NCBI RefSeq assembly: GCF_016342405.1
Contig: NZ_JAEINN010000021.1
Location: 1-36,830, forward strand
Origin: Maridesulfovibrio ferrireducens
Lineage (GTDB): Bacteria; Desulfobacterota; Desulfovibrionia; Desulfovibrionales; Desulfovibrionaceae
Direction: 5' to 3'
Length of the DNA stretch: 36,830 nucleotides
The notes beneath the pieces were generated by a model. It saw only the letters and a list, made by a program, of their open reading frames with translations, was not told the DNA's origin and did not search any database. A program made the position numbers and the translations under genes. How positions within the stretch are numbered: position 1 is the stretch's first letter; each line of letters opens with the position of its first letter. Positions 210-32,868 of the stretch are shown piece by piece.

Positions 210-2432
210 ATGCGCTTTTCCTTAAGAAGAAAAATAATCACGATTGCCTGTGGAGCTGCAGTTATTCCCATTGTGGCAATGCTTGTTCTCATCAATATTT
301 TGGAATCCAGCTTAAGCGAAAGTGTCGCTTCGGAAATTCACACTCTTATAACATCCCATGTTTCTCAGGTAACCAGTGATCTTTACGAGGAATGTCGGAC
401 TTCGAACGAGTTGCTTGTGCTCGAAACGAAGCGGGCTGCAAAGGCCTTGCAGGCAATGATTGACGAGGGCGGCGACATCAGGCTTTTGAAAAAAGAATCG
501 GAATGGTCGCTTGTCAATTCGCGAGTAAAAGAGAAAAAAATTACCGTTCCTGTGCTTATGATCGGTGATTATAGTTTGACTTACGGTAAGCGCAAAAATG
601 AATCACTCCCTCTTTTGGTTGAAGCCTCTGAAATTTCAGGAGCCTATTGTACCATTTATCAGCGTGTTAATCCTGAAGGGGATATGTTGGTTGTCGATAC
701 TACTTCTAAAGTAAAAAAAGAAAGCATGGGACTTGGCAGTATCTATTATTCACTAAGTGCAGAAGGGAAAAGAGACTCTATTATTGATGAGATCCTTTCC
801 GGACGGCCTGTAAGTCGACATTGTGAAGAGGATGATGGCATCAAGTTTCTTGCTTATTCCCCTCTTCGGGATCAGGCAGGGGCTGTTGTGGGTATGCTTA
901 GTGTCCACATGCGAGACGATATTTCTGACAATCTGCACAAGTCTATTCTTAAGACCTCTATTAATAAATCCGGTTTTGTCTGGGTTCTCGGTACCAAGGG
1001 AAAAAATCGTGGAAAATATATTCTATCGCATTTCAGCAGCCCTGAAGAAGAAGCAGCATTAAAAACCGGTCAGCAACACGAGGCTTTTGTCACAGAATTG
1101 ATTTCGCAAGCAATTAACGCCGGAGAAGGTAAGCTGCTGACTAAGGAATATCTTTGGAAGCTGGGCTCTGACGATGAAGGGCGGATGAAACTTTCTGTTT
1201 ACACATATTTTGCGCCGTGGGGCTGGGTCATCGGTTCCGGAGTCTATCTTGATGAATATAACGGTATTCGAGATCGTTTGACCGGGACAATGGCTAAACT
1301 TACCCAGTGGCTTGGCATTACGGGTTTTGTACTTCTGATATTGACACTGGTTGTTTCAACGTATGCGAGCGGACTTATCGCCAATCCCATAAGTCATATG
1401 GTTGGTATCTCCAAAATGATTGCAAACGGAGATATTTTCGAAGCCAAGCGTTCTATTGAGATGATTGAAAAGGTTTGTCCCAATGCCCGTAAAGCAGCCC
1501 GGAATGTCGATCGGCAGGAGAATCTTGATGAAACTGGGCAACTTTATCTCGCGGTCAGGGATATGGTCGAGAACCTCGGTTCCCTTGTGGGACAGGTTCA
1601 GCGCTCAGGAATTCAGGTAACGACTTCTTCTACGGAGATTGCCGCTTCGGCTAGACAGTTAGATATGACTTTTAATCAGCAGGCTTCTGCAACTACTCAG
1701 ATAAGCGCTACCAGTACGGAAATTTCAGCAAATTCGGGCGAATTGGCCGGAACCATGCAGGAAGTTACAGCTTCTGCTTCAAACATGGCTCTGTTGGCGC
1801 AGGAAGGGCAGGATGGGTTGAAGACCATGATTAGAATCATGAATGACCTGAGCGTTGCCACTTCAAGTATCACTGATAAATTAGCCGGAATTAATGAACG
1901 GGCAAATTCTATTGAGGGGATTGTCGGGACAATCACAAAAGTTGCTGACAGGACAAATTTACTTTCCCTGAATGCGGCAATTGAGGCTGAAAAGGCAGGA
2001 AAGTTCGGACAGGGTTTCTCCGTTGTTGCCGGAGAGATAAGGCGGCTTGCGGATCAAACTTCTGTAGCGGCTCTTGAAATTGAGAATATGATCGGTAACA
2101 TGCGTGTTGCTGTTGATTCAGGAGTTGTTGAGATGGATCGTTTTGCTGATGATGTCCGTTGCGGAGCCGGAAAGGCCGTAAAGCTTGGAAAGAAGCTTGA
2201 TGGAATTATGATGGGAGTTCGAGACCTTAATCCCAGAATCGAGTTGGTGAATGACGGTATGTCCGCACAGGCCGAAGGCGCGGAACAGATAAGCGAGGCA
2301 CTGGGGCAACTTTCAGATACGTCAACTCATACTTCCGAAGCCCTTGGAGAGTTCAATCGGGCTGCATTTCAGCTTAATGAGGCTGTTCAGGGGTTGCGCG
2401 ATGAAGTTTCGCGTTTCAAGGTGAGTGAGTAA
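210..2432 (+). CDS. Methyl-accepting chemotaxis protein with double Cache sensor (WspA position)
   Basis: Inner-membrane chemoreceptor that should sense a periplasmic ligand and control the CheA encoded downstream. Visible parts: TM1 at about residues 11-31; a long periplasmic region to about 360 ending in the Cache_2-like string FAPWGWVIGSGVYLDE; TM2 at about 362-386; a HAMP-like segment with an unusually long connector; and a signalling hairpin with [15 protein letters not shown] and EIRRLADQT. The strings RRLADQT and SGVVEMDRF resemble WspA-type (alternative cellular function) receptors as I recall them. No CheR-tethering pentapeptide is seen at the C-terminus. The start follows AGGA at 192-195 with wide spacing, so the RBS is weak. 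The stop overlaps the next gene's ATG by one base. The ligand is unknown. Confidence 0.93.
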   Translation: MRFSLRRKIITIACGAAVIPIVAMLVLINILESSLSESVASEIHTLITSHVSQVTSDLYEECRTSNELLVLETKRAAKALQAMIDEGGDIRLLKKESEWSLVNSRVKEKKITVPVLMIGDYSLTYGKRKNESLPLLVEASEISGAYCTIYQRVNPEGDMLVVDTTSKVKKESMGLGSIYYSLSAEGKRDSIIDEILSGRPVSRHCEEDDGIKFLAYSPLRDQAGAVVGMLSVHMRDDISDNLHKSILKTSINKSGFVWVLGTKGKNRGKYILSHFSSPEEEAALKTGQQHEAFVTELISQAINAGEGKLLTKEYLWKLGSDDEGRMKLSVYTYFAPWGWVIGSGVYLDEYNGIRDRLTGTMAKLTQWLGITGFVLLILTLVVSTYASGLIANPISHMVGISKMIANGDIFEAKRSIEMIEKVCPNARKAARNVDRQENLDETGQLYLAVRDMVENLGSLVGQVQRSGIQVTTSSTEIAASARQLDMTFNQQASATTQISATSTEISANSGELAGTMQEVTASASNMALLAQEGQDGLKTMIRIMNDLSVATSSITDKLAGINERANSIEGIVGTITKVADRTNLLSLNAAIEAEKAGKFGQGFSVVAGEIRRLADQTSVAALEIENMIGNMRVAVDSGVVEMDRFADDVRCGAGKAVKLGKKLDGIMMGVRDLNPRIELVNDGMSAQAEGAEQISEALGQLSDTSTHTSEALGEFNRAAFQLNEAVQGLRDEVSRFKVSE

Positions 2433-2917
2433 TGCTCGTTCTTACTTTCAGAATAGGACAATACGCTTACGGACTTGAAGCCCGCTTTGTCGCTGAGGTC
2501 GTTCCACCGACTATTTATAAAGAACTTCCGCGTTCTCCGGGGTATGTTAAGGGAATATTTAACTATCGTGGTACAATTACACCTGTTGTGGATCTTTCAA
2601 TGCTTGCGACTGATACGGCTTGCAAACCTTTGATGAGTACCCGGGTAATTATTTTAGATTTTGCTGATATTGATTCTGCTGAAGAGCGTGGTGAAAGGTA
2701 TCTGGGTTTGCTTGCGGAAAATATAACTGAAACTGTAAAACTTTTTGATTCGGATTTTGAATCTTCCGGCTTAGAAATTCCTGATGCTCCGTGGCTTGGA
2801 AAGGTTGCGAGAATTGAAGGTGGTATGCTTCAACTTATTAAACCGGGCAAACTGCTTTCTGAAGAGTTGCGGACAGTTCTTTTTTCCAAGTCAGAAATAG
2901 AACAGGTTGATGGTTAA
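2432..2917 (+). CDS. cheW: CheW-type coupling protein (WspB position)
   Basis: A 161-residue single-domain CheW adaptor that would link the receptor to the CheA kinase at the membrane. The whole protein is one CheW fold. It opens with the typical LTFRIGQYAYGLEARFVAEV, and the motif YVKGIFNYRGTITPVVDL marks the central CheW signature. Its ATG overlaps the TAA of the upstream receptor by one base (TAATG), which implies translational coupling. It is the second gene of a layout identical to wspABCDEF. Confidence 0.95.
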   Translation: MLVLTFRIGQYAYGLEARFVAEVVPPTIYKELPRSPGYVKGIFNYRGTITPVVDLSMLATDTACKPLMSTRVIILDFADIDSAEERGERYLGLLAENITETVKLFDSDFESSGLEIPDAPWLGKVARIEGGMLQLIKPGKLLSEELRTVLFSKSEIEQVDG

Positions 2918-2920
2918 AAT

Positions 2921-4165
2921 ATGAATCTTGAGCCGTTTCAAAAAATCCTTAAAAGGGCCATGGGCCTTGCTCCGGAATCTCTCGGAAAATCAGGAGTCTG
3001 TCATGCCTTGCAGGTAAGGATGCGGGCGGCTGGTTGCAGCGAGTCTGAATATCTGAGGCTGCTTCAAACTGATGAACAGGAAATTTCAGAACTGATTGAA
3101 GAGATTGTTGTGCCTGAGACGTGGTTTTTTAGGGATACAAAACCTTTTGAACTGCTTTCAGAAACAGCCGTGAGTTGCCGCAGAGAAGTGTATAAAGTGT
3201 TAAGTGCTCCATGTTCTACAGGAGAGGAGCCTTATTCCGCTGCTATGGCTCTTATGGGGGCAGGTCTGTCTACCGATCGCATCAAAGTTGATGCAGTGGA
3301 TATCAGCAAGCGTGCATTATCCAGAGCTAAAGAAGGAATTTATACCGACAACTCGTTTAGATCAGAATTGCCTGTTTACGCTAAAAATTGTTTTAAAAAA
3401 TGTGAACAAGGGCGGAAGTTAGTTGATAGGGTTAAGGATGTTGTAAGCTTCTATTCAGGGAATATTGTTGAGGGGGAGCTTCCGCTCGGACAATACGATG
3501 CTATTTTTTGCAGGAATTTGATCATTTATCTAGATGAAAGTTCAAGGGAATGTTTAGCTGAACTGTTTAATGAAAGATTGAAAAAGGACGGGTTGCTTTT
3601 TGTGGGGCATGCTGAGGCCTTACCGCTTTTTAATAAATATTTCACTCAGGTAAAAAAGTCCGGGGTTTTTGCTTTTAAGAAGACAGAAAAGAAAAGCGTA
3701 GACAGGGCAGTTAAGTCTTTCAACTGCATCAAGTCGAAATATCCGGCTTATCCAGTTCGTAGTGACTTGGTTTTGCCTGAACAACGTAAAAAAAGATTAA
3801 TTAAGAAGCCTTTGATTGATACAGATACGTCTCAACAGCCTGAAAAAATAAAGTTTTCATTAAGTGATGTTAGGCTTTTGGCAGACAGGGGAGAAACCTC
3901 AAAAGCCTTGTCATTATGTCAGAATATTCTGGTGAGTGACGGTCCTGAGGCGAATCTTCTGCACTTGTGCGGTTTACTTTATGAAGCACAGGGAGAGCCT
4001 ATGCAGGCTGAAGAGTATTATGGAAAAGCATTGTATTTGAATCCGCAGCACTTGGATTCTCTGGTGCACCTTGCGTTGCTGGTCGAAACCAGAGGTGATG
4101 AACGTAAGGCTGCTCTTCTTCGTAACCGGGTCCGGCGGGCCGAAAAGCAAAATGAGGCCGGCTAA
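2921..4165 (+). CDS. cheR: CheR-type receptor methyltransferase with C-terminal TPR (WspC-like)
   Basis: SAM-dependent glutamate methyltransferase that should methylate the cognate receptors for adaptation. An N-terminal all-alpha CheR domain contains VPETWFFRD (about residues 64-72). The SAM-binding motif SAPCSTGEEPYS lies at about 95-106, and FCRNLIIYLD forms the later catalytic-domain strand. After a Lys-rich linker (about 260-310), residues 325-400 look like two TPR units (LCGLLYEAQGEPMQAEEYYG). A C-terminal TPR is characteristic of WspC-type CheR and could replace pentapeptide tethering, which fits the lack of a visible pentapeptide on the receptors. It starts 3 bp after cheW, and its TAA overlaps the next ATG. 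Confidence 0.94.
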   Translation: MNLEPFQKILKRAMGLAPESLGKSGVCHALQVRMRAAGCSESEYLRLLQTDEQEISELIEEIVVPETWFFRDTKPFELLSETAVSCRREVYKVLSAPCSTGEEPYSAAMALMGAGLSTDRIKVDAVDISKRALSRAKEGIYTDNSFRSELPVYAKNCFKKCEQGRKLVDRVKDVVSFYSGNIVEGELPLGQYDAIFCRNLIIYLDESSRECLAELFNERLKKDGLLFVGHAEALPLFNKYFTQVKKSGVFAFKKTEKKSVDRAVKSFNCIKSKYPAYPVRSDLVLPEQRKKRLIKKPLIDTDTSQQPEKIKFSLSDVRLLADRGETSKALSLCQNILVSDGPEANLLHLCGLLYEAQGEPMQAEEYYGKALYLNPQHLDSLVHLALLVETRGDERKAALLRNRVRRAEKQNEAG

Positions 4166-4821
4166 TGCTTGATACCTGTTGGAATGAAATAGGTTATGTC
4201 GGTGACAGGTCATGTCCAGAGCTTACGAAGTGGAGTCATTGCTTTAATTGTCCGCAGTTCACTCAAGCCGGATTGAGTCTATTACATAGAGAACCTCCCG
4301 AAGGGTATCTGGCTGAAAATTCCGTGGCGGTTTCAATTGCCAAAGATGAAGAGGTCGCAGAAACTTCCGGGGCAGTTGTATTTAGAATTTCAAAAGAATG
4401 GCTGGCTCTGTCATCACTTGTTTTTGTTTCGGTTCTTGAACTTAGAAAGATACGGCCTGTTCCTCATAAAAGTGGTAAATATTTTAAAGGATTATCAAGT
4501 CTTCAAGGACAGATAGTCCCTGTTGTTTCAGTCCGTGACCTTTTGGGGCTTGAAAGGGAATATCTTACTGAAGAAGAAAAAGGGTTCAGAGTTTACAGCA
4601 GGTTCATCTGTTTAGATCGGGGACTTGGCCGGTGGATTTTTGAAGCTGACGAGGTTTTGGGAGTGCATCATTACTTTGCTGATGCTTTGCTTGATGCCCC
4701 TGCTACCGTTTCAAAAGCTCCTGCTGCGTATACCAAAGGGTTGTTTGATCTTGATGAAAAACGGGTCTCTCTTCTTGATGAAGAGTTGTTATTTGAAGCA
4801 TTTAATCGCATCATAAAATAG
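4165..4821 (+). CDS. cheW: CheW-type coupling protein with Cys-rich N-terminal extension (WspD-like)
   Basis: Second CheW adaptor of the cluster, 218 residues. Residues 1-60 form an extension with four clustered cysteines (C5, C17, C26, C29) in the pattern CWNEIGYVGDRSC...HCFNCP. The CheW domain follows (about 68-215), with VVFRISKEWLALSS and KGLSSLQGQIVPVVSVRDLLG. I recall the same Cys-rich head from WspD-type proteins, so it appears conserved rather than incidental, and it could bind metal or act as a redox element. It is translationally coupled to cheR by TAATG. It probably shares or competes for receptor and CheA binding with the first CheW. Confidence 0.92.
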   Translation: MLDTCWNEIGYVGDRSCPELTKWSHCFNCPQFTQAGLSLLHREPPEGYLAENSVAVSIAKDEEVAETSGAVVFRISKEWLALSSLVFVSVLELRKIRPVPHKSGKYFKGLSSLQGQIVPVVSVRDLLGLEREYLTEEEKGFRVYSRFICLDRGLGRWIFEADEVLGVHHYFADALLDAPATVSKAPAAYTKGLFDLDEKRVSLLDEELLFEAFNRIIK

Positions 4822-4860
4822 TGGCGGAAATTTTGGACAGCCTGACAGGGAGTATTTAAC

Positions 4861-7800
4861 GTGACGCGCGATATGGGCGATCTTTCCATGCTTGAGCTTT
4901 TTCGCATGGAGGCTGAAAACCACACTAAGGTGCTATTCTCGGGCTTGCCCACCCTTGCAGAAGGAGATCACTCCTCTGAACTGGTGGAACCTCTTATGCG
5001 TGCGGCAGCGTCCCTTAAAGGCGCGGCGCGCATAGTCGGTCTTGCTGATGCAATAGAAGTTGCCGGAACGCTTGAATCCGTTTTGGAGCTATGCCGGAGC
5101 GGGAAAGTTGCGGCTTCGGCAAGTATTATTGAGGGGATGCTTTCAGCTACTGAATTTTTATCCAATCTTGCCGCTGTGGAAGTGGAAGAAATGGATAAGT
5201 GGCTTGAGGAGAATAATTCCTCCCGCACGGAAATAGTCTCTTCTTTGCAAAAAGGAAAAGACGTTGAACCTATACCTGTGCCCACGCCTAAACTCGATCC
5301 TGAACCTGTTTTTGAACTAGAATCTAAACCCGAAATTTTAGAAGCTTCACCCAAAAAGAAAGTAGCACTGGCGGATGCCTCTATGCTCGATCTTTTTCGT
5401 ATGGAAGCGGAGAGTCACTCTCAGTCGTTATCTTCCGGTCTGCTTGAACTTGAAAAGAACCAGTCTCCTGAAAATGTGGAACCGCTCATGCGGGCTGCCC
5501 ATTCTTTAAAAGGAGCGGGGCGAATTGTCGGACTGAACGGAGTCGTTGAACTGTCTCACGCCATGGAAGATGTCCTTGAAGCGTGCCGCAAAGGCGAACG
5601 AGTTTTAGTTTCTCAGGATATAGACAGATTGCTTGCCGCAACGGATTTCTTTTCTGAAATGGCTAAGACTGAAGCTGACCAGCTTGAAACGTGGTTGTCT
5701 GATAATTCTTCTTCCATGCAGAGCGTTGCTAAGGAATTAGCCAAACCTCCGTCTGTCCAAAGTACTGTTCCAGAAATTTCTGAGCCTCAGGTTGTAGAGC
5801 CACCAGTTGTAGAACCTCCGGTTGAACAAGCGCCTAAAGTGGACGTTCCACTTGCAGATCTTTCCATGCTCGATCTTTTCCGCATGGAAGCAGAGAGCAA
5901 TTCACAGTCACTTACAGCCGGTCTTTTGGCACTTGAAAAGGATCAGTCTGCTGATAAGGTTGAACCTTTGATGCGCGCAGCCCATTCAATGAAAGGGGCT
6001 GCCAGAATTGTGGGGCTGACGGATGCAGTTGCTCTTGCGCATGCGATGGAAGATTTGCTGGTTGCCTGCCAGAAAGGTGAAGTTAAACTGACGGCTGACC
6101 AAATAGATGTTTTGCTCGCTTCAACCGATATTTACGGAGAAGTTGCCCAGCTTGATACAGATGCTATTCAGGGTTTTCTGACAGATGAGAAGCCCACAAT
6201 GGATCTGCTTGAAAAAGGACTTCGTGGTGATGAAGCTGAAGTTAAAAAGGTGCTTTCGGAGATAAAATCTGTTCATGCTGACATTGTTTCGGATAATGAA
6301 ACATCGGTCTCTTTGCCGGAAGTAAATGAAAAAGAAATTTCTGATAAAAAAAATAAGCCTGAAGTTAAAGAATCTGTTTCACCGATAAAAAAGAGTTTAA
6401 AAAGTAATGACGCAGTGGTCAGAGTCTCCGCAGGAAATCTTAACAGGTTGATGGCTCTTGCCGGAGAAAGTCTGGTTGAGGCCGGAAGGCTCGGTACTTT
6501 TGCATCCTCGTTGCTCAGGTTGAAATCCGGTCAGCGCGATTTGATGAAAGCCTTTGAAAGAGCGGGAGAAAGAGTAGGAAACGGCGAATCTCTGTCATAT
6601 ATAATGGACGAGATAAAGGCTGTTATGAGTGAAAATCAAGTATTACTGGCAACGTATTCCAGTGATTTTGATACCTATCGCAGACGTTCGGATAATATTT
6701 CCGGCAGACTTTATAATGAAGTTGTTGCCAGCCGTATGCGGCCGTTTTCCGACGGGGGACGTGGTTTTCCCCGCTTGGTGCGGGATCTTGCCCGTTCTCT
6801 TGGAAAAGAGGTTGATTTCGTTGTTGAAGGAGAAGCAACAGCCGTGGACAGGGATATCCTTGAACGGCTTGAGGCTCCGCTGAATCATATAATCAGGAAT
6901 TCGGTTGACCATGGTATTGAAATGGGACCGGACCGGGTTGCCGCTGGAAAGCCTTCGAAGGGTACCATCAAAGTTATTGCCGGACACAGGGCTGGAATGC
7001 TTTTTATTGAAGTGCGTGATGACGGCAGAGGGATAGATCCCGAACGTATCAGAGCCAAGGTTGTTGAAAAGAAACTTGCGCCGGGCAGAATGGCGGCTGA
7101 AATGAGTCGCGCTGAGTTGATGGAATTTCTGTTTCTTCCGGGCTTTTCGACCGCAGGAAAAGTCACTGAAATTTCAGGGCGCGGAGTCGGACTTGATGTT
7201 GTACACGCCATGGTTCAGGAAGTTGGCGGAACAGTAAGAGCTGATTCTGTTCCCGGTGAGGGAATGTCTTTTTCCATGCAGCTACCGCTGACCCTTTCGG
7301 TAATACGCACCCTTCTGGTTGAAATTTCCGGTGAACCATATGCCCTTCCACTAAGCCGTATCAGTAGGATTGCTTCTATTCTACCTGCTCAGTTGAAGCT
7401 CGTCGAAGATAGACAATATGTCTCCCTTGATAATTCTAATGTCGGGCTTGTTCCGGCTTCGCAAATTCTTGGTACAGAGACTTCAAAAAAAGAAGAAGAG
7501 GCTGTTAAGGTAGTTGTTATCAGTGATCGTATGAATAAATACGGGTTGGTTGTTGATGATTTTATGGGAGAGCAGGACCTTGTAGTTAGGCCGCTTGATC
7601 ACAGATTCGGCAAAGTGCCCGATGTTAATTCCGTAGCGCTCATGCCTGACGGATCGCCTGTTCTGATTTTAGATGCTGAAGATCTTGTGCGCTCAATTGA
7701 TAATCTGCTTTCAGGCGGAAGACTCAGCAAAGTCGGTATGGATGTCGTTGATAAAGGTCCGGTTCAGCGAATTCTGGTTGTTGATGACTCTCTTACTGTG

Positions 7801-8139
7801 CGGGAAGTTGAGCGTAAGCTTTTAACCAATCACGGTTATGAAGTAGATACGGCAGTAGATGGAATGGACGGGTTTAACGCCCTTGCTACGGGTCATTATG
7901 ATCTAGTGGTTACGGATGTTGATATGCCTAGAATGAACGGGCTGGAATTGACCAGAAAAATAAAATCCGATTCTGACTTGAAATCCATTCCGGTAATGAT
8001 GGTTTCATATAAAGACCGGGAGGAAGATAAACTGCGCGGGCTTGAAGCAGGCGCGGATTATTATTTTACGAAAAGCAGCTTTCATGATGAAACTCTTTTA
8101 ATAGCTGTAGAGGATCTGATCGGTGAGGTTATGAAGTGA
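4861..8139 (+). CDS. cheA: Hybrid chemotaxis histidine kinase CheA with three Hpt domains and a receiver (WspE-like)
   Basis: Central kinase of the cluster, 1092 residues. Order: Hpt1 (about 7-115), Hpt2 (about 172-280), Hpt3 (about 333-440), dimerisation region (about 515-640), HATPase (N box NHIIRNSVDHG, then DDGRGIDPERI and GRGVGLDVVH), CheW-like domain (about 800-940), and REC (about 969-1090) with acidic pair D975/D976 and phospho-acceptor D1019. Hpt2 and Hpt3 keep the phospho-histidine in AAHSLKG (H214) and AAHSMKG (H375). Hpt1 reads AAASLKG, with Ala50 replacing His. The GTG start at 4861 has AGGGAG at 4847-4852, 8 bases upstream. An in-frame ATG at 4873 is possible but worse placed. 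It would phosphorylate CheB and the REC-PP2C protein. Confidence 0.96.
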   Translation: MTRDMGDLSMLELFRMEAENHTKVLFSGLPTLAEGDHSSELVEPLMRAAASLKGAARIVGLADAIEVAGTLESVLELCRSGKVAASASIIEGMLSATEFLSNLAAVEVEEMDKWLEENNSSRTEIVSSLQKGKDVEPIPVPTPKLDPEPVFELESKPEILEASPKKKVALADASMLDLFRMEAESHSQSLSSGLLELEKNQSPENVEPLMRAAHSLKGAGRIVGLNGVVELSHAMEDVLEACRKGERVLVSQDIDRLLAATDFFSEMAKTEADQLETWLSDNSSSMQSVAKELAKPPSVQSTVPEISEPQVVEPPVVEPPVEQAPKVDVPLADLSMLDLFRMEAESNSQSLTAGLLALEKDQSADKVEPLMRAAHSMKGAARIVGLTDAVALAHAMEDLLVACQKGEVKLTADQIDVLLASTDIYGEVAQLDTDAIQGFLTDEKPTMDLLEKGLRGDEAEVKKVLSEIKSVHADIVSDNETSVSLPEVNEKEISDKKNKPEVKESVSPIKKSLKSNDAVVRVSAGNLNRLMALAGESLVEAGRLGTFASSLLRLKSGQRDLMKAFERAGERVGNGESLSYIMDEIKAVMSENQVLLATYSSDFDTYRRRSDNISGRLYNEVVASRMRPFSDGGRGFPRLVRDLARSLGKEVDFVVEGEATAVDRDILERLEAPLNHIIRNSVDHGIEMGPDRVAAGKPSKGTIKVIAGHRAGMLFIEVRDDGRGIDPERIRAKVVEKKLAPGRMAAEMSRAELMEFLFLPGFSTAGKVTEISGRGVGLDVVHAMVQEVGGTVRADSVPGEGMSFSMQLPLTLSVIRTLLVEISGEPYALPLSRISRIASILPAQLKLVEDRQYVSLDNSNVGLVPASQILGTETSKKEEEAVKVVVISDRMNKYGLVVDDFMGEQDLVVRPLDHRFGKVPDVNSVALMPDGSPVLILDAEDLVRSIDNLLSGGRLSKVGMDVVDKGPVQRILVVDDSLTVREVERKLLTNHGYEVDTAVDGMDGFNALATGHYDLVVTDVDMPRMNGLELTRKIKSDSDLKSIPVMMVSYKDREEDKLRGLEAGADYYFTKSSFHDETLLIAVEDLIGEVMK

Positions 8140-9140
8140 GAATTGGTATAGTCAATGATATGGCAATGGCTGTGGAAGTCCTGAAAAGAATTGTCAACGG
8201 GGCTGGATTTCAAGTGGCGTGGGTCGCATTTAACGGTGAAGAAGCTGTTTTTAAATGCTGTAGAGATGTTCCTGATATCGTGCTGATGGATCTGATTATG
8301 CCGGTGATGGACGGAGCAGAAGCAACCCGCCGCATAATGAAGGAATGTCCCTGTTCCATATTGGTTGTTACAGCCAGTATTGAGAGCAATGCTTCAAAAG
8401 TATTCGAAGCAATGGGTGCCGGAGCGCTCGATGTTGTTACCACTCCCGAAATGGGAATAGGTGGTGAGCTTGAAGGGGCAAAAAATCTTACTGCTAAAAT
8501 TTCATTGATCAGAAGATTGCAGGGCGTTGAAGTAGAAAAAGAGGTTAAACCGATTACTGTTGCCTCTTTAAAAAGAACTCCCAGACTGCTTGCAATCGGA
8601 AGCTCCACAGGTGGTCCGACGGCTTTGGCAACAGTTCTCGGAGCTTTGCCGGCTGATTTTCCTGCTGCGATTGTCATTATTCAGCATGTGGACGGGAGTT
8701 TTTCGGAAAATCTCGCTAATTGGCTTAACGGACAGACGAAATTGGAAGTTAGCCTAGCAAAAAGAGGCGATATTTTACACGCTGGTAAAGTTCTTCTGGC
8801 TCCCGGGAACAGGAATATGCTTCTGGGAACGGGCGGGATAGTTCATCTTACAGACGGACCGGGGGAGAGTTTGTATGTTCCTTCGGTGGATATTTTTTTT
8901 AAGAGCCTCTGTTGTGCCGGGATACCCGAAGGTTCAGCCGCAGTTCTTTTGACGGGAATGGGCGCGGATGGTGCGAAAGGTCTTCTTGAGTTAAGAGAAA
9001 AGGGCTGGATGACCATTGCACAGGATAAAGAGAGCAGCGTTGTGTGGGGAATGCCCGGAGCTGCGGTGAAGCTAGGCGCGGCTCGGAAGGTTAGTTCTAT
9101 TGAGAGTATGGCGCAGGTTTTGATCAGACATTTTAAGTAA
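8136..9140 (+). CDS. cheB: CheB chemotaxis response regulator / protein-glutamate methylesterase (WspF-like)
   Basis: 334 residues. An N-terminal receiver (DIVLMDLIMPVMDGAEATRR, phospho-Asp near residue 52) is joined to a CheB methylesterase domain. The catalytic triad can be read as Ser in GSSTGGPT, His in IIQHVDGSF and Asp in GMGADG. It removes methyl groups from receptor glutamates and, by analogy with WspF, damps the pathway. Its GTG start overlaps the cheA stop (GTGA), indicating translational coupling. It also fits CheB-type glutamine deamidation, and no cheD is present in the window. Confidence 0.96.
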   Translation: MRIGIVNDMAMAVEVLKRIVNGAGFQVAWVAFNGEEAVFKCCRDVPDIVLMDLIMPVMDGAEATRRIMKECPCSILVVTASIESNASKVFEAMGAGALDVVTTPEMGIGGELEGAKNLTAKISLIRRLQGVEVEKEVKPITVASLKRTPRLLAIGSSTGGPTALATVLGALPADFPAAIVIIQHVDGSFSENLANWLNGQTKLEVSLAKRGDILHAGKVLLAPGNRNMLLGTGGIVHLTDGPGESLYVPSVDIFFKSLCCAGIPEGSAAVLLTGMGADGAKGLLELREKGWMTIAQDKESSVVWGMPGAAVKLGAARKVSSIESMAQVLIRHFK

Positions 9141-9162
9141 ACTATTTCACGGAGACTGTTAA

Positions 9163-10356
9163 ATGACAAATTCTGTTATGAATGAAAAGTTGCTGACTGA
9201 GCATAAAATCAGCGTACTTTTAATAGATGATCAGCCTATGGTGGGCGAAGCTGTGCGTAGAATGCTGGCCGAAGAAAAGGATATAGATTTTCATTTTGTC
9301 AGTGATCCTACTATTGCAATTCCCACTGCCGAAAAGTTGGAGCCGACCGTTATTTTACAGGATCTGGTTATGCCCGAGATTGACGGTATGACCATGGTAA
9401 AGTTTATGCGGGCCAATTCAAAACTTAAAAATATTCCCCTGATTGTGCTTTCCACCAAAGAAGAAGCTACCACTAAAGCTGAAGCTTTCGCTCTCGGCGC
9501 AAATGACTATCTGGTTAAATTGCCGGACAGAATCGAACTTCTCGCACGCATAAGATATCATTCAAAAGGTTACATCAACCTGCTTCAGAGAAATGAAGCG
9601 TATAAACAGCTCCTTGAAAGCCGGGATGCCATGCGTAAAGAGCTGGCTGTTGCGGCTGATTATGTAACGTCTCTTTTGCCTCTCCCTGTTGCGGAGGGAG
9701 AAATTCAGGCCGATTGGAGATTCCTTCCGTCAGCTTCTCTCGGCGGAGATTCTTTCGGGTATCACTGGCTCGATGATGATCATTTTGCCATTTATCTGCT
9801 TGATGTCTGTGATCATGGAGTCGGTTCTGCGTTACTCTCAGTTTCCGCTATGAACGTTTTGCGTTCACAGACTCTTCCCGACACAGACTTTCATAAGCCC
9901 GATGAAGTGCTTTTCGCTCTGAATGAATCCTTTCAGATGGATCAGCAGAACAATTTATATTTCACTATGTGGTATGGAGTTTATAAAAAATCAGACCGCA
10001 CTTTGACCTACTCGAGCGGCGGACATCCACCGGCTTTACTTATGAACGGAGATGAAGTTGCACAGCTCAGAACTCCGGGCATGATTGTGGGCGGGATGCC
10101 GGATATGGAATATACCAGTGACTCAATAACGGTAAAGCCCGGAGCTCGCTTTTTCCTCTACAGTGACGGGGTATATGAGCTGAAAAAAGTATCTGACGGA
10201 AAAATGTGGGACTTTGAAAGTTTTGTAAATTTTATGGCGTCAACAACAGGCCCGCTCGGCAGTCCTATTGATATGCTTATAGGTCACACCAAAGAACTTC
10301 AGGGACGCGAAGAGTACGATGATGATTTTTCAATGGTCGAATTTGTTTTTGAATAG
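9163..10356 (+). CDS. Response regulator with WspR-type receiver fused to PP2C/SpoIIE phosphatase
   Basis: Output protein of the chemosensory operon, 397 residues. Receiver about 17-132: acidic pair D22/D23, phospho-Asp D67 in TVILQDLVMP, and K119 in ANDYLVKLPDRIE. Its wording (GEAVRRML, IDFHF, IVLSTKEE, IRYHS) is very close to the WspR receiver as I recall it. A helical linker (about 135-175) leads to a PP2C/SpoIIE domain (about 180-395) with GGDSFG (D196), LLDVCDHGVG (D214), SGGHPPALL, LYSDGVYE and EYDDDFSMV, so the metal-binding aspartates are present. RsbU/SpoIIE relatives dephosphorylate STAS anti-anti-sigma proteins. No such partner lies in this window, so the substrate is unknown. RBS GGAG at 9151-9154. 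Confidence 0.95.
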   Translation: MTNSVMNEKLLTEHKISVLLIDDQPMVGEAVRRMLAEEKDIDFHFVSDPTIAIPTAEKLEPTVILQDLVMPEIDGMTMVKFMRANSKLKNIPLIVLSTKEEATTKAEAFALGANDYLVKLPDRIELLARIRYHSKGYINLLQRNEAYKQLLESRDAMRKELAVAADYVTSLLPLPVAEGEIQADWRFLPSASLGGDSFGYHWLDDDHFAIYLLDVCDHGVGSALLSVSAMNVLRSQTLPDTDFHKPDEVLFALNESFQMDQQNNLYFTMWYGVYKKSDRTLTYSSGGHPPALLMNGDEVAQLRTPGMIVGGMPDMEYTSDSITVKPGARFFLYSDGVYELKKVSDGKMWDFESFVNFMASTTGPLGSPIDMLIGHTKELQGREEYDDDFSMVEFVFE

Positions 10357-10389: not shown

Positions 10390-12210
10390 ATGAATATCCG
10401 CAAACAGTTCATGATAGGGTGTGTTGTTTTTTGTTTGGTTCTTACTATGGCCATTTTGTTTTTGATTTCAAATTATACCCATAAAACGCTTATGCAGGAA
10501 TATCGGGGTAAAGCTGAAATCATGTTGCACTCCATGATGGCTGTTCGTAAGCATACCAGCGCAGTGATCCGTCCTAAGGCTACAGAATTGTTGCCGAAGA
10601 ATCAGTTCATGCCTGAATTACAATCCACTTCATTTACCGCCAACGGGGTTTTCAGTCGCATTCCGGATAAGTTTAAGCATGAACTTTTGTACAAGACAGC
10701 TTCAACCAAACCGCGAAATCCTGAAAATATGGCGACTGAGGATGAATTCCTTATAATTGAGGATCTTGATAAGCTTGCAAAGAATGGTCAGCGGCCTTTT
10801 TTTGAAGGAATCAGAACTGTAAACGGTGTGGATTATTATGTAATTGCTGAAGGGGAAGCCAACAAGCCCGGATGTATGATTTGTCACGGCAAGCCGGCTG
10901 AAGCTCCGCAGTCCATGAAAGACCGGTATCCGGTTGAAAAGGATGGTGGATATTACCGTAAACCGGGGCAGGTGGAATGTGCTCAGCTTGCTTCTATTCC
11001 GCTTTCAGCAATGGATGTAGTTGCTAATCAAACCCTTGGATCAGTCCTTTTTATAGGCTTTTTCTTCATTTCCTTTGCCTTGGCATTTTTATTGTTCGGG
11101 CTTAATTTAATTTTTAATCCCATTTCCAGAATTACCGGCATTGCTAAATTTATTGCGGAAGGAGACCTTGAAAGCGCTGATACGGCAATCCATAATATGA
11201 GGCGGGCCGCTCAGGGTAAATTCTTTGCGGGTAGAATTATGAAATCTGGAAATGAAATCGGAAACTTAGTTCAATCTTTTGAAATAATGATTGAAGGTCT
11301 TTCGGATTTGATAACCGAAGTGCGGGATTCGGGAGACAATGTCTCTGTTTCCGGCAGAAAAATAAGTGCGACAGTCGGGGATATTGATTCCGCAGTGACC
11401 AGACAGGCAGCTTCCACTAATGAAGTTACGGCAACAAGCAGCCTTATCCGCAAAACATCAAGGAATCTTGTTGATGTAATGGAAGAAGTTGCCGTGAATG
11501 CCTCAGAGTCTGCTGATTTAGCAGAAGTGCTTCAAGGTAATATTTCACTGCGTGAGAAATCACTGATTAATCTCGTTAATTCTACAGATAATGTTTCTTC
11601 CAGACTTGGAGCCATAAACGAGAAGGCTAATAAAATTAATCAGATTGTAACAACTATCGCCAGAATTGCGGATCATACCAATCTTCTTTCACTTAATGCC
11701 GCTATTGAGGCTGAAAAAGCAGGCCAGTTCGGTCAGGGTTTTTCTGTTGTAGCTCGTGAAATCAGAAGACTTGCAGACCAGACGGTTATTGCCGCGGAAG
11801 ATATTGAATTGATGGTTCGCGATATGCAAAGTGCGGTAAGTTCCGGTGTGATGGAAATGGAAAAATTTAATCACGAAGTCCGTTCAAGTGTCGATGAAGT
11901 GGAGAAAATGAGCCTTGACCTCGGGCAAATTGCTGAGCAGGTGAGAGTTCTCAAACCCAAGTTTGCCGAAGTTTCACGGGCAATGGGAGATCAGGCCGAC
12001 AGTGCTGAGCAGATTAATGAAGCGATGTCTGATTTGAGTGAATCCGCAGTCGGAACCACAAGCTCAATTGAAGAGTTTAAGCGCACTGTTGCCAGTTTGA
12101 ATTACACTGTTCAGAGTTTAACAGGGGCTGTTGACGGGTTCAGGGCTGTAGAGTCTGACACAGGCAAGCAGTCCGGAGAAACTCCTGAAACTGAAAAGGA
12201 ACAATCTTAA
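10390..12210 (+). CDS. Methyl-accepting chemotaxis protein with periplasmic c-type heme (Tll0287/DUF3365-like) domain
   Basis: Receptor of 606 residues. TM1 is at about 9-27, a periplasmic domain at about 28-208, TM2 at about 214-242, then a HAMP-like region with a long connector and a signalling hairpin ([33 protein letters not shown]) matching that of the first receptor of the operon. The periplasmic part has one CxxCH site, C162-M-I-C165-H166, followed by GKPAEAP, as in Tll0287-like (DUF3365) heme domains. It therefore probably senses redox state or a gas, like DcrA of Desulfovibrio (a known heme-c receptor). It sits 33 bp behind the REC-PP2C gene and probably belongs to the same transcript. 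Confidence 0.93.
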
Positions 12211-12227
12211 CTGAGATAATTAACACA

Positions 12228-12267
12228 CTTGTAACAATACCGCCTTATTAGAGACAGTTGTTACAGG
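12228..12267 (+). promoter_or_regulatory. Inverted repeat upstream of the PhoB-type gene
   Basis: CTTGTAACAA (12228-12237) and TTGTTACAGG (12258-12267) form nearly perfect inverted arms with a 20-base gap. They end about 26 bases before the GTG start. The position suits an operator, possibly autoregulatory for the following response regulator. The arms do not clearly match a Pho box, and no -35/-10 pair is obvious. Function is inferred from position and symmetry alone. Confidence 0.35.
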
Positions 12268-12293
12268 TATGGTCTGTTCCAAAGGAGATCATT

Positions 12294-12980
12294 GTGTCAA
12301 TTGATAAAATATTGGTCGTAGAAGATCATCATGATACTATTGAATTACTGAAATATAATTTGACCTCATCCGGTTTTGACGTTGTTACAGCAATGGATGG
12401 GCATAAAGCTCTGGAACAAGCCAGAAATGAAAAGCCTGACCTTATTCTGCTTGATCTTATGCTTCCGGGCATTGATGGGCTGGAGGTCTGCCGCAGGCTT
12501 AAACATGAAGCGGGAACGCAGCATATCCCTGTTGTAATGCTTACAGCTAAGGGTGAAGAAGTAGATAGGGTTGTGGGGCTTGAGCTCGGGGTTGACGATT
12601 ATATCGTAAAGCCGTTCAGCCCGCGTGAATTGGTGCTCAGGGTTAAAGCTGTTTTAAGGCGCGGTTCAGAAGTTGAAACGAAACGTCCCGGTAAGTGGAA
12701 TCGTGAAGGTCTCGTAGTTGATTTCGAGGCCCATACTCTGGAATGCGATGGAGAGCTGGTGGCTCTTACTGCAACAGAATTTAAGCTGTTTTCAGAGCTA
12801 TTGCAGCATGAAGGAAAAGTTCGTACGCGTGATCACCTTCTTGATAAAGTCTGGGATACTCATTTTGAGGGATATTCGAGAACTGTTGATACGCATATCC
12901 GGCGATTACGTCAGAAGCTCGGTCCATATGCCGACTTTATCGAGACCGTGCGCGGTGTCGGATATCGCTTTAAAAGCTGA
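12294..12980 (+). CDS. OmpR/PhoB-family winged-helix response regulator
   Basis: DNA-binding response regulator of 228 residues. N-terminal receiver: KILVVEDHHD, phospho-Asp in LILLDLMLPGIDG, and VDDYIVKPFSPREL. C-terminal trans_reg_C winged helix: LTATEFKLFSELLQH and ending SRTVDTHIRRLRQKLG...VRGVGYRF. The GTG at 12294 is preferred to the upstream TTG at 12258 because AAAGGAG (12281-12287) sits 6 bases before it and the receiver begins directly after. It resembles PhoB, but no PhoR-like kinase is adjacent, so the partner is open. It is followed by a strong terminator. Confidence 0.93.
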   Translation: MSIDKILVVEDHHDTIELLKYNLTSSGFDVVTAMDGHKALEQARNEKPDLILLDLMLPGIDGLEVCRRLKHEAGTQHIPVVMLTAKGEEVDRVVGLELGVDDYIVKPFSPRELVLRVKAVLRRGSEVETKRPGKWNREGLVVDFEAHTLECDGELVALTATEFKLFSELLQHEGKVRTRDHLLDKVWDTHFEGYSRTVDTHIRRLRQKLGPYADFIETVRGVGYRFKS

Positions 12981-30648: not shown

Positions 30649-32709
30649 TTATTTATTAACCCGACTGCGTTTAATTACTTTTTTCACTTTTTTTAGGTAT
30701 GGAATTGCAATCGACATCCTATCATCAGGAGTATCCAAATAAGCCTTAGCAATTTCCTTAAGTGAAGGACTTACTGCCTCCTGAATAGCCTTTGCCCGCT
30801 GCTTACGGAGCGTGGAGTTTTTGCTGTATAAATCACTCCATTTACTTGAATAAACTTTATGATTTATTTCATTCTGATGTTTTTCAGTTTCTTTTCCTTT
30901 TTCAACCATATTATTCCAAGAGTCTTTAATTGATTCAGTCAACTCTTGTCCCAAAGAGGTTTCGTCAAGAATTACTTTTTTGCCATACTTTGCAGCTTTT
31001 TTTTGGGTCTCAGGATGAGTAATCGGACTGACAATTTTGTGAGTCTCGTCTAAAGCTTCCTCAACGAGTTCAACTCCGGCTTCACCAGCAATGCTGCCTA
31101 TTTTTCCTAAAGCTTGGCTAGTTCCTTTTACGGTCTTCACAAGGCCATTTCTAACTCTTGATGGAAATCCTTCTTCCTTTTCATGAACATTATGACTCGG
31201 AGTGTCAGTCGAATGTCCGCGCACAAATGCCTTGTTCCGTTGTATTTGTTCGTGTTTATTTTTCCCAATATCCGATTCCTCACTCTCCCCAGCCAACCCC
31301 GTCCGGTCATGAAAATTAATAGGATCATCCAAACAGTACCCATAAACATCCACATCCCCGCCAGCTAAACCGATTGGGTCGGGAGTTATGAACCTGCCGA
31401 TAGTGGGATTATATTCACGATATCCCAAATGTACGAGTCCGGTATCTTTGTCTGTCAGTCCCGCGGCGAATCCTAAACACACCTCTAAGCTGACTCCGCT
31501 ATCGAGCAATACATTACCGAACGAATCATATATAATTCGCTTTACATCATAACCTCTTTCGTCCGCAACCATGAAGATAGTGCCGACTTGATTTGTTGCG
31601 AAAAGAAAGGTGCGTCCTTCAAATGTCATGCTGACGGGATCGCCTTCTTCGTTATAGGAAAATACTTTTGGGTGTAATCCTTCGCCGTCTGTCACGGCTA
31701 TAAGTGTAGTCAAATCCTGCCAAAGATACTTTTCGACAACTTTGCCGTTGATAGACTTCGCAATTCTTCGCCCCAGAGGATCAGAGGAATATTCGATTCT
31801 TCGTCCGTCCGGTAAACGAACTTCGTGAAGCGGGCCGGATTCTAAATATGAATAGCGAGTTACCTGCCCGAGATCAGTTTTCATAATCATGCGGCCTTGA
31901 TTGTCGTACATATATTTTACTTCGCCAGCTTGCAGGAGTTGCATGTTTTGGCCGTACTTAAACAACCTTGGTTTTGTCTGCCGAGTTTCCGCGAATAAGC
32001 GTTCACCGTTTTTACCGTACTGATAATGTTCAATAACAGCGTTGTCGCAGAGAACTTTGCTGAGTCTGCCGCCGTTGTCGTATTCATATTCACGTTCAAT
32101 AGCTTCTGGATCGAGAACGATGCCTGTGTATATGATTCTGCCGTTTTCATCTCGTTCGGTGGCGAGTAGCGAAAACTCTTCCTCCGAATTTGGAATCATG
32201 AACGATTTTGTTTGGTATGCTTCGACAGCTTCAACATCCACGGAATCCCTTTTCTGTTCATCATAAATATGTTCACCCGTGCCAGCTTCCGGCTGTCGCG
32301 GCTGATTCCTTGCAACTTCTGCAAGTAATTCCCGCCCGTATTGAGTATTTATCAGATCTTTAACAAGCGGGAGTTCTGGATTTTCAACAATAAACTTTGC
32401 GTGGAGATTCCGCTTTGTTTTTTTAAGATATTCCTTTTCGTATTCCATTTCTCTAAGCTTGCGTTCCCATAACGCCCTACGTTCAGGGGACATCATGCTT
32501 GGATACATGCGTTCATGGGCTGGAAATTCTTTGAGACAATAATAGGGGCTGTCCATTTCTTCCGGCCCCTCAAGAATTGAGTTCGGTACCACATCGTACA
32601 TCATTTCCAGAATGTCTTCGGGAGGCAGTGAGTTTTTATACAGGCGAACATTGATTGGAATATCCTTGCCTTCTTTCTTTCTTAACTTGTAACCGCCGGG
32701 ATAGATCAT
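30649..32709 (-). CDS. Short Rhs-family protein with unidentified C-terminal (toxin-position) domain
   Basis: 686 residues from the ATG at 32709, chosen because GGAG lies 7 bases upstream; the frame stays open to a GTG at 32868. Residues about 1-200 are charged and lack YD repeats. Residues about 210-440 carry Rhs/YD repeats (YEYDNGGRLSKV, YMYDNQGRMIMKTD, IEYSSDPLGRRIAKS). The Rhs core follows (GLVHLGYREYNPTIGRF, TPDPIGLAGGDVDVYGY). The usual closing DPxG motif reads HDRTGL, so Pro is replaced by Arg. From about residue 473 a 214-residue Lys/Glu-rich tail of unknown family replaces it. It is shorter than typical 1400-residue Rhs proteins. Polymorphic toxin delivery is likely, but no VgrG, PAAR or other secretion gene is in the window. 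Confidence 0.85.
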   Translation of the reverse strand: MIYPGGYKLRKKEGKDIPINVRLYKNSLPPEDILEMMYDVVPNSILEGPEEMDSPYYCLKEFPAHERMYPSMMSPERRALWERKLREMEYEKEYLKKTKRNLHAKFIVENPELPLVKDLINTQYGRELLAEVARNQPRQPEAGTGEHIYDEQKRDSVDVEAVEAYQTKSFMIPNSEEEFSLLATERDENGRIIYTGIVLDPEAIEREYEYDNGGRLSKVLCDNAVIEHYQYGKNGERLFAETRQTKPRLFKYGQNMQLLQAGEVKYMYDNQGRMIMKTDLGQVTRYSYLESGPLHEVRLPDGRRIEYSSDPLGRRIAKSINGKVVEKYLWQDLTTLIAVTDGEGLHPKVFSYNEEGDPVSMTFEGRTFLFATNQVGTIFMVADERGYDVKRIIYDSFGNVLLDSGVSLEVCLGFAAGLTDKDTGLVHLGYREYNPTIGRFITPDPIGLAGGDVDVYGYCLDDPINFHDRTGLAGESEESDIGKNKHEQIQRNKAFVRGHSTDTPSHNVHEKEEGFPSRVRNGLVKTVKGTSQALGKIGSIAGEAGVELVEEALDETHKIVSPITHPETQKKAAKYGKKVILDETSLGQELTESIKDSWNNMVEKGKETEKHQNEINHKVYSSKWSDLYSKNSTLRKQRAKAIQEAVSPSLKEIAKAYLDTPDDRMSIAIPYLKKVKKVIKRSRVNK
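31300..31416 (-). repeat. Rhs core direct repeat, copy A (within the intact gene)
   Basis: This is the partner of 29710-29826. It encodes the last part of the Rhs core (GRFITPDPIGLAGG to HDRT) inside the 686-residue protein. Its 3' boundary in the coding direction coincides with Thr470, directly before the variable C-terminal domain. Confidence 0.88.
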
Positions 32710-32868
32710 GTTTCGTCTCCACTTATTTTTGTGATCGCCTTTCCAAATACAGAAATGTTCTGAATTTGGGTGATGGTCGTTTGTCTTAATAAGCAGAGGA
32801 TAATGGACAAGGCGGACATGAATAAGCCGAGTCAGGTCCGTCCTGTGAAAAAAACAAAAAAATACCAC

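Follow-up and report, generated by a model that had tools for sequence, protein, structure and literature searches.

A Wsp-type chemosensory operon with a PP2C phosphatase output in Maridesulfovibrio ferrireducens and its probable connection to partner switching

The window analyzed here, a stretch of 36,830 nucleotides that constitutes the entire contig C21 of the 4.2-Mb genome of Maridesulfovibrio ferrireducens, harbors seven open reading frames (ORFs) arranged head to tail on the + strand (210-10356) in the order wspABCDEFR, the last of which encodes a response regulator combining a WspR-like receiver (REC) with a PP2C/SpoIIE phosphatase domain. We consider it probable that these genes specify a Wsp-type (alternative cellular function, ACF) chemosensory pathway with regulated Ser/Thr dephosphorylation as its output, via a partner switch. 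The sequence-level support for this proposal comprises the gene order, the domain content, the receiver and stalk of the regulator, its catalytic residues, the kinship of CheA and CheB, and the STAS and kinase genes found as neighbors elsewhere.

The domains expected for the Wsp order, which had been claimed in an earlier reading made without database searches (the sequence-only reading), were detected by Pfam in all seven products. The chemoreceptor at the WspA position (210-2432; Cache_3-Cache_2 and MCPsignal), a position kept in relatives, is followed by CheW (WspB, 2432-2917), CheR-TPR with CheR and TPR_1 (WspC, 2921-4165), a second CheW with an N-terminal Cys motif (WspD, 4165-4821), CheA-REC with three Hpt domains, HATPase_c, CheW, and Response_reg (WspE, 4861-8139; also identified by motifs and tree), CheB with Response_reg and CheB_methylest (WspF, 8136-9140; also identified by NCBIfam NF009206 above cut-off and by tree), and the regulator (9163-10356), all on the + strand. 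The first Hpt domain of CheA has Ala at residue 50 instead of the phospho-accepting His, the second and third being intact. The Cys head on the second CheW is present as described, and a comparable motif occurs in the Wsp operons of Azoarcus (L222) and Mesorhizobium (L226), our GGDEF references, which are annotated in the same gene order; the comparison of this motif by output type, made with a strict regular expression, is only indicative. The description of the genes as overlapping held for three of the six junctions and failed for the others, which have gaps of 3, 39, and 22 bases. As previously noticed, the 20 window proteins scanned by Pfam include neither CheD nor a stand-alone CheY nor any flagellar protein, a few window ORFs lying outside that scan. 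By Pfam content, the operon pairs CheR-TPR with a multidomain response regulator, the combination that defines the ACF class in the text of PMC3447774. The order was conserved in all five genus relatives whose neighborhood was fetched (G005, G002, G015, G009, and the L128 record), and because many relatives have the complete arrangement again, with some loci lacking members or being cut by contig ends, it is more than chance.

The receiver of the regulator is, on sequence criteria, a member of the WspR family. When the regulator was compared with the PDB, two WspR structures gave the best scores (182 and 175 bits), followed at lower levels by Pseudomonas aeruginosa RssB (101 bits, over both domains) and PleD (59 bits). 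Among 20 plasmid-borne Wsp-type receivers of Alpha- and Betaproteobacteria, 19 share 60-67% identity with the window receiver and one shares 59.7%; the regulators of all seven plasmid regions that were fetched have a C-terminal GGDEF domain according to profile, and no plasmid record matched the PP2C regulator over 80% of its length. In the receiver tree, 104 Wsp-type rows formed one clade (branch value 99, starred) that excluded the 12 other REC-PP2C receivers taken from the window's phylum, several of which have very long branches; the window receiver falls outside these 12 with the same value and the same long outgroup branches. Both the PDB search and the tree agree with the similarity to WspR described in the sequence-only reading, and a generic RsbU receiver, considered as a candidate, was ruled out by the same PDB scores and tree placement. 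The regulator was present in 17 of 17 searched genomes of the genus, its own included (78-100% identity), and the same search recovered it at full length in two other genera of the family (63 and 55% identity).

Downstream of the receiver, Pfam detects no GGDEF domain and instead places SpoIIE/PP2C there (137 bits). The receiver and stalk form a cassette spanning residues 16 to about 157 (9208-9633), delimited by column comparison and by a continuous helix at residues 123-170, and the PP2C/SpoIIE domain extends over about residues 184-396 (9712-10350). The receiver residues D22, D23, D67, T98, and K119 are all present, and D22, D23, D67, and K119, along with Asp196, 214, 335, 387, and 388 of the PP2C domain, were invariant across the 49 aligned sequences (the window protein plus 48 of 69 eligible homologs). 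The AlphaFold2 (AF2) model, with a mean predicted local distance difference test (pLDDT) score of 94.3, consists of REC, the single helix 123-170, and PP2C. A fold search with this model returned P. aeruginosa RssB first (3f7a/3eq2) and Escherichia coli RssB second, with WspR at ranks 9-11, whereas the PP2C part matched SiaA (6k4e), SpoIIE, RsbX, and the RsbU domain of Rv1364c further down. The metal-binding Asp residues and the PPM fold are both present according to alignment, model, and fold search, which bears out the earlier description of an intact PP2C domain; a degenerate PP2C was ruled out by the invariant catalytic Asp residues. The column comparison, covering 94 PP2C, 13 GGDEF, and 4 cyclase rows, revealed that the three versions of the regulator are alike in receiver and stalk motif to about residue 157 and diverge beyond it.

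The distribution of this regulator was examined with a PP2C-alignment scan of named genomes, from which the best 80 of at least 569 candidate loci were kept. At least 70 of these best 80 loci encode distinct Wsp-type receivers with PP2C, and they spread through Desulfobacterota, Planctomycetota, Verrucomicrobiota, Kiritimatiellota, Lentisphaerota, Chlamydiota, Acidobacteriota, Ignavibacteriota, Chlorobiota, Elusimicrobiota, and one record placed by taxonomy in Myxococcota; the survey proposed in the sequence-only reading did find the operon in relatives and across phyla. A recent local fusion was ruled out by these orthologs in many phyla. Upstream sequence of 1.5 kb or more was available in the fetched loci for 61 PP2C regulators; of these, 41 have CheB in the locus, 38 have CheA, and 18 have neither. 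Because such a scan selects for PP2C, a receiver-based census was made in five phyla, using the whole regulator (E<=1e-30) in the window's phylum and the receiver alone (E<=1e-25) in the other four. A Wsp-type receiver was detected in 59 of 1040 genomes, comprising 47 with PP2C, 6 with GGDEF, 4 with a hybrid kinase, and 2 cut or fragmentary; these totals are lower bounds, since only the best candidates per genome (6 or about 21) were scored, and 6 of the 59 are seed genomes picked for having PP2C, without which PP2C accounts for 41 of 53. The window's phylum contributed 19 of 297 genomes (13 PP2C and 6 GGDEF, three GGDEF and two PP2C being confirmed by Pfam), Planctomycetota 9 of 199 (8 PP2C, 1 hybrid kinase), Acidobacteriota 6 of 199 (4 PP2C, 1 hybrid kinase, 1 fragment), Verrucomicrobiota 10 of 194 (8 PP2C, 2 hybrid kinase), and Chlamydiota 15 of 151 (14 PP2C, 1 cut by a contig end). 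Pseudomonadota were reached only via plasmids and PDB entries and lie outside this census. The PP2C output is the commoner form in the five-phylum samples and is not a local rewiring. In Chlamydiota with genomes of 2.1-3.5 Mb, the Wsp-receiver-PP2C regulator was present in L141, L152, L175, and L297-L310, accompanied by CheW, CheA, and CheB in L141 and L152 and by CheW and CheA in L175.

The phylogeny of the remaining operon genes adds a second line of kinship. In the tree of CheA and CheB combined, 58 Wsp rows fell together (100, starred), separate from three further Che systems encoded in the window's genome, which were not assigned to flagellar classes; a fourth additional CheA, on C12, has no CheB in its locus and was omitted. 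The placement of the window CheA and CheB with Wsp operons, apart from these three systems, is in line with the sequence-only reading. The same reading had PP2C replacing GGDEF, and this direction is not borne out by the data. In the CheA and CheB tree the GGDEF operons make up one group (79, not starred), all remaining operons have PP2C, and one switch separates the two outputs; in the rooted trees the GGDEF rows are nested as one group inside the PP2C rows (96, starred, for the receiver; 79 for CheA and CheB). That PP2C is derived, an ancestral cyclic di-GMP (c-di-GMP) Wsp system having exchanged its output, nevertheless keeps a fair share of probability, somewhat below an even chance: forcing the PP2C operons into one clade cost only 0.11 log units, with an approximately unbiased test value (p-AU) of 0.48 (CheA and CheB tree only, with the long-branch outgroup L254 omitted), so that such a clade was not rejected, while the nesting of GGDEF and the greater frequency of PP2C in five phyla both speak against it. 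The tree of the PP2C domains, with 23 rows from other PP2Cs that include the contig-edge fragment L179, needs six label changes between Wsp-linked and other PP2Cs, two of them forced by starred branches, so that recruitment or transfer of PP2C may have occurred on more than one occasion.

The input side differs from what had been anticipated. Next to the operon lies a second chemoreceptor with a Tll0287-like domain (10390-12210, + strand; Pfam), conserved in this position. The surface or contact sensing suggested by the sequence-only reading is unsupported because the window receptors carry Cache_3-Cache_2 and Tll0287-like domains and not the four-helix bundle of Wsp receptors. Of four GGDEF-operon receptors scanned, three have a four-helix bundle (4HB_MCP_1) and one has none, whereas the six scanned from PP2C operons comprise three with Cache (one of L110, L113, and L147), one with Tll0287 (L130), and two without a recognized sensor (the other of L110, and L150). 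These domain assignments suggest that the input is more likely chemical than contact. The second receptor of the window also contains a CxxCH stretch.

The pathway that we propose would begin with a chemical ligand at the Cache receptor, plus a redox or heme-linked cue at the Tll0287 receptor, which would tune CheA activity, with adaptation through methylation by CheR-TPR and CheB. Phosphate would pass from CheA to Asp67 of the regulator, whereupon phosphorylated receivers would dimerize or re-register the continuous helix 123-170 and thereby activate the paired PP2C domains, as proposed for RsbU. Taken together with the linker mechanism proposed for RsbU in the text of PMC12143880, re-registering of the stalk dimer upon receiver phosphorylation is the simplest reading. 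The phosphatase would then dephosphorylate a STAS protein, which would capture an RsbW-like kinase and free the client of that kinase, possibly an anti-sigma target, a diguanylate cyclase, or another protein.

Candidate partners for such a switch were sought in the genome itself and in the fetched loci. The M. ferrireducens genome yielded 8 SpoIIE, 15 STAS, and 17 HATPase_c_2 matches, fused proteins and matches below the family cut-off being counted, and 6 of its stand-alone STAS proteins and 3 of its stand-alone RsbW-like kinases served to build profiles. After exclusion of 31 of the 118 receiver loci (all types) with too short flanks, a kinase and/or STAS gene was found up to 2 kb downstream of the regulator in 7 of 68 PP2C loci (L130, L142, L149, L151, L165, L168, and L204), against 0.3 of 68 expected from a crude base rate in the own genome. 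The linked partners are on the opposite strand in L130, L142, and L204, and in L165 the kinase domain belongs to a protein of 513 aa. Beyond these seven, a STAS/kinase pair immediately precedes the receptor gene in L039, a member of the window's family; a pair also lies upstream in L187 and directly 3' of the regulator in L228, and a kinase lies directly 3' in L291 and L292. The partner-switching reading made earlier is thus backed by RsbW-like kinase and STAS neighbors in some other taxa. When the operon-linked proteins were compared with these 6 STAS proteins and 3 kinases of the own genome, most matched one pair best: seven of eight linked STAS proteins the one at C14:96315 (in L142 by 0.4 bits only) and 9 of 11 linked kinases the one at C14:96735, although the lead was small in some cases. 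This pair (G000, about 96297-97166) is flanked by a mechanosensitive channel and an ABC protein, and none of the eight SpoIIE proteins is encoded on C14. A match to the C14 kinase (E<=1e-15) was found in all 19 relatives with the operon versus 9 of 39 without it; in G029 the match is the operon-linked kinase itself. From these sequence matches, the unlinked C14 STAS and kinase pair appears to be the likeliest set of partners in the window's genome. No conserved client gene was found beside the linked STAS/kinase pairs, and ABC transporter genes occur near the partner pairs of the acidobacterial loci L168, L203, and L204. In Desulfatibacillum, a STAS, an RsbW-like kinase, and a PP2C gene stand in a run (L121:5839-8378, the same as L143; also L137), and this PP2C, which belongs to the subfamily of the window's PP2C and is 52-55% identical to it, lacks a Wsp-type receiver. 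A related protein in L041 has a GAF domain in place of that receiver.

Several observations weigh against the proposed switch. STAS or kinase genes were absent up to 2 kb downstream in 61 of the 68 PP2C loci, and the candidate pair is unlinked to the operon in the window's genome. GGDEF loci had linked partners in 0 of 13 cases, a nonsignificant difference from the PP2C loci (p 0.59), and the STAS and kinase detectors derive from the sequences of a single genome. Seventeen of the 19 relatives positive for the C14 kinase belong to one genus, so that the count by genus is 3 of 3 versus 8 of 27 (p 0.04, uncorrected). Furthermore, the 18 of 61 PP2C regulators without CheA and CheB in the fetched locus, 17 of which are planctomycete or unplaced records, may therefore include some that answer to something else. 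These are L142, L146, L153, L155, L157, L159, L163, L164, L173, L180, L183, L184, L186, L190, L193, L195, L200, and L205, and 16 of them are planctomycete records.

Among the other explanations, a pathway that still ends in c-di-GMP, through control of a diguanylate cyclase by the freed STAS protein or kinase (the pattern of SiaABCD and of HsbR-HsbA-HsbD), is unlikely but has precedents in P. aeruginosa in the texts of PMC9239204, PMC5085249, and PMC6482189. The earlier suggestion that c-di-GMP has left the loop is not supported, since SiaABCD shows that the end point of a partner switch can be a diguanylate cyclase (text of PMC9239204); on the other side, no GGDEF domain was detected in the small sample of 10 neighbor proteins scanned (L168, L204, L151, L165, L121, L203, and L130). 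We also find it rather improbable that the PP2C acts on a substrate other than STAS, such as the receptor, CheA/CheB, or a Ser/Thr-kinase substrate, with the STAS and kinase neighbors being incidental. The lack of a linked STAS gene in the window's genome and in most PP2C loci would fit such a substrate, and this is countered by the linked pairs in several phyla, which mostly match the same orphan C14 pair best, and by the Desulfatibacillum arrangement, where a PP2C of the same subfamily stands after a STAS-kinase pair. An ordinary RsbU-type REC-PP2C regulator standing behind a chemosensory operon by chance, its kinship with WspR superficial, is very improbable, given that WspR scores far exceed those of other receivers, that the Wsp clade has a starred value of 99 (with long outgroup branches), that the stalk is common to the Wsp versions, and that the operon recurs across phyla, even though the full-length fold is nearest to P. 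aeruginosa RssB and the top NCBIfam match is RssB, far below cut-off.

Returning to the proposed Wsp-type pathway, its receiver and stalk were also found with outputs other than PP2C and GGDEF. Two terminal regulators in tandem, a receiver-class III cyclase followed by a receiver-PP2C, were observed in G330, in G288, and in a Desulfobacteraceae metagenome-assembled genome (MAG), at L118:12279-14971 and L119:10928-13551 (both by Pfam) and L162:7255-10804 (by profile), and one array may drive two outputs where they stand side by side. An additional, more divergent receiver-cyclase occurs in the Kuenenia MAG L220 (45 bits to the cyclase profile). In four genomes of Planctomycetota, Acidobacteriota, and Verrucomicrobiota (L234, L239, L295, and L296), the receiver and stalk are fused to a hybrid histidine kinase, as judged from sequence rather than Pfam. 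Another family of the order contributes five genomes (L042-L046) that encode a receiver-only Wsp-type protein of 160-182 aa adjoining a large protein, which is a hybrid kinase by Pfam in the one scanned; in L043 (3141-12094) the receiver-only protein has a HisKA-REC-Hpt hybrid kinase on one side and, on the other, a type II/IV secretion ATPase with an MshEN domain, a neighborhood that suggests pilus control. A broader and more tentative idea, to which we assign somewhat less than even odds, is that the Wsp receiver and stalk constitute a plug-in module of chemosensory and related kinases for at least four enzymes (PP2C, GGDEF, class III nucleotidyl cyclase, and hybrid histidine kinase), and that c-di-GMP Wsp would be a derived branch of an older and wider chemoreceptor-controlled partner switch.

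Past the second receptor, the window encodes an OmpR-type response regulator (12258-12980, + strand; Pfam), and the succession of Tll0287-like receptor and OmpR-type regulator 3' of the operon recurs in the same five genus relatives. Farther along, at 30649-32868, a protein matches the teneurin YD-shell model with 71 bits (cut-off 50).

Compared with Pseudomonas Wsp (WspABCDEF-WspR), the window operon has the same gene order, CheR-TPR, Cys-motif CheW, CheA-REC, CheB, and WspR-family receiver with stalk, but PP2C instead of GGDEF, a Cache receptor instead of a four-helix-bundle one, and a second receptor. REC-PP2C proteins of the RssB/HsbR type share the REC-helix-PP2C architecture and differ in receiver family, as seen in the tree with the 12 REC-PP2C receivers of the window's phylum. 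These phosphatases, like RsbU and SiaA, have STAS partners; they take their input from histidine kinases or stress proteins and are not known to be coupled to chemoreceptor arrays. The STAS partner of SiaA is described in the text of PMC9239204. A PP2C output of this kind is already known, because Munoz-Martinez 2012 (PMC3447774) lists the Ser/Thr phosphatase family 2C, along with mononucleotidyl cyclase, among the regulator outputs in cheR-TPR clusters; the passages of that study considered here, its tables aside, identify neither the receiver as that of WspR nor a stalk common to the different outputs, and they give neither partner genes nor the distribution described above. No description of a WspR-family receiver on PP2C was found in the titles, abstracts, and passages searched, supplements and the cited class paper lying outside that scope, and within the same literature no account was encountered of the WspR identity of the receiver, of the shared stalk and where the outputs diverge, of how widely the arrangement is distributed, or of its partner genes.

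For the family as a whole, these observations join chemoreceptor arrays to putative Ser/Thr partner switches, with an identified receiver, a swap boundary, and candidate partners. They also call for caution in equating "Wsp" with c-di-GMP: the text of PMC6461901 names the WspE-WspRF two-component systems of Planctomycetes as surface-affinity regulators, and the nine planctomycete genomes in which we found the receiver, probably not those of that study, include eight with PP2C and none with GGDEF. Finally, the text of PMC12143880 proposes a linker mechanism common to PPM phosphatases, cyclases, and kinases, with input domains exchangeable via a helical linker. In contrast to that coiled-coil toolkit, a single receiver and stalk family is found here on PP2C, GGDEF, class III cyclase, and hybrid histidine kinase outputs; the same module on four enzymes would provide a natural test of output exchange via helical linkers.

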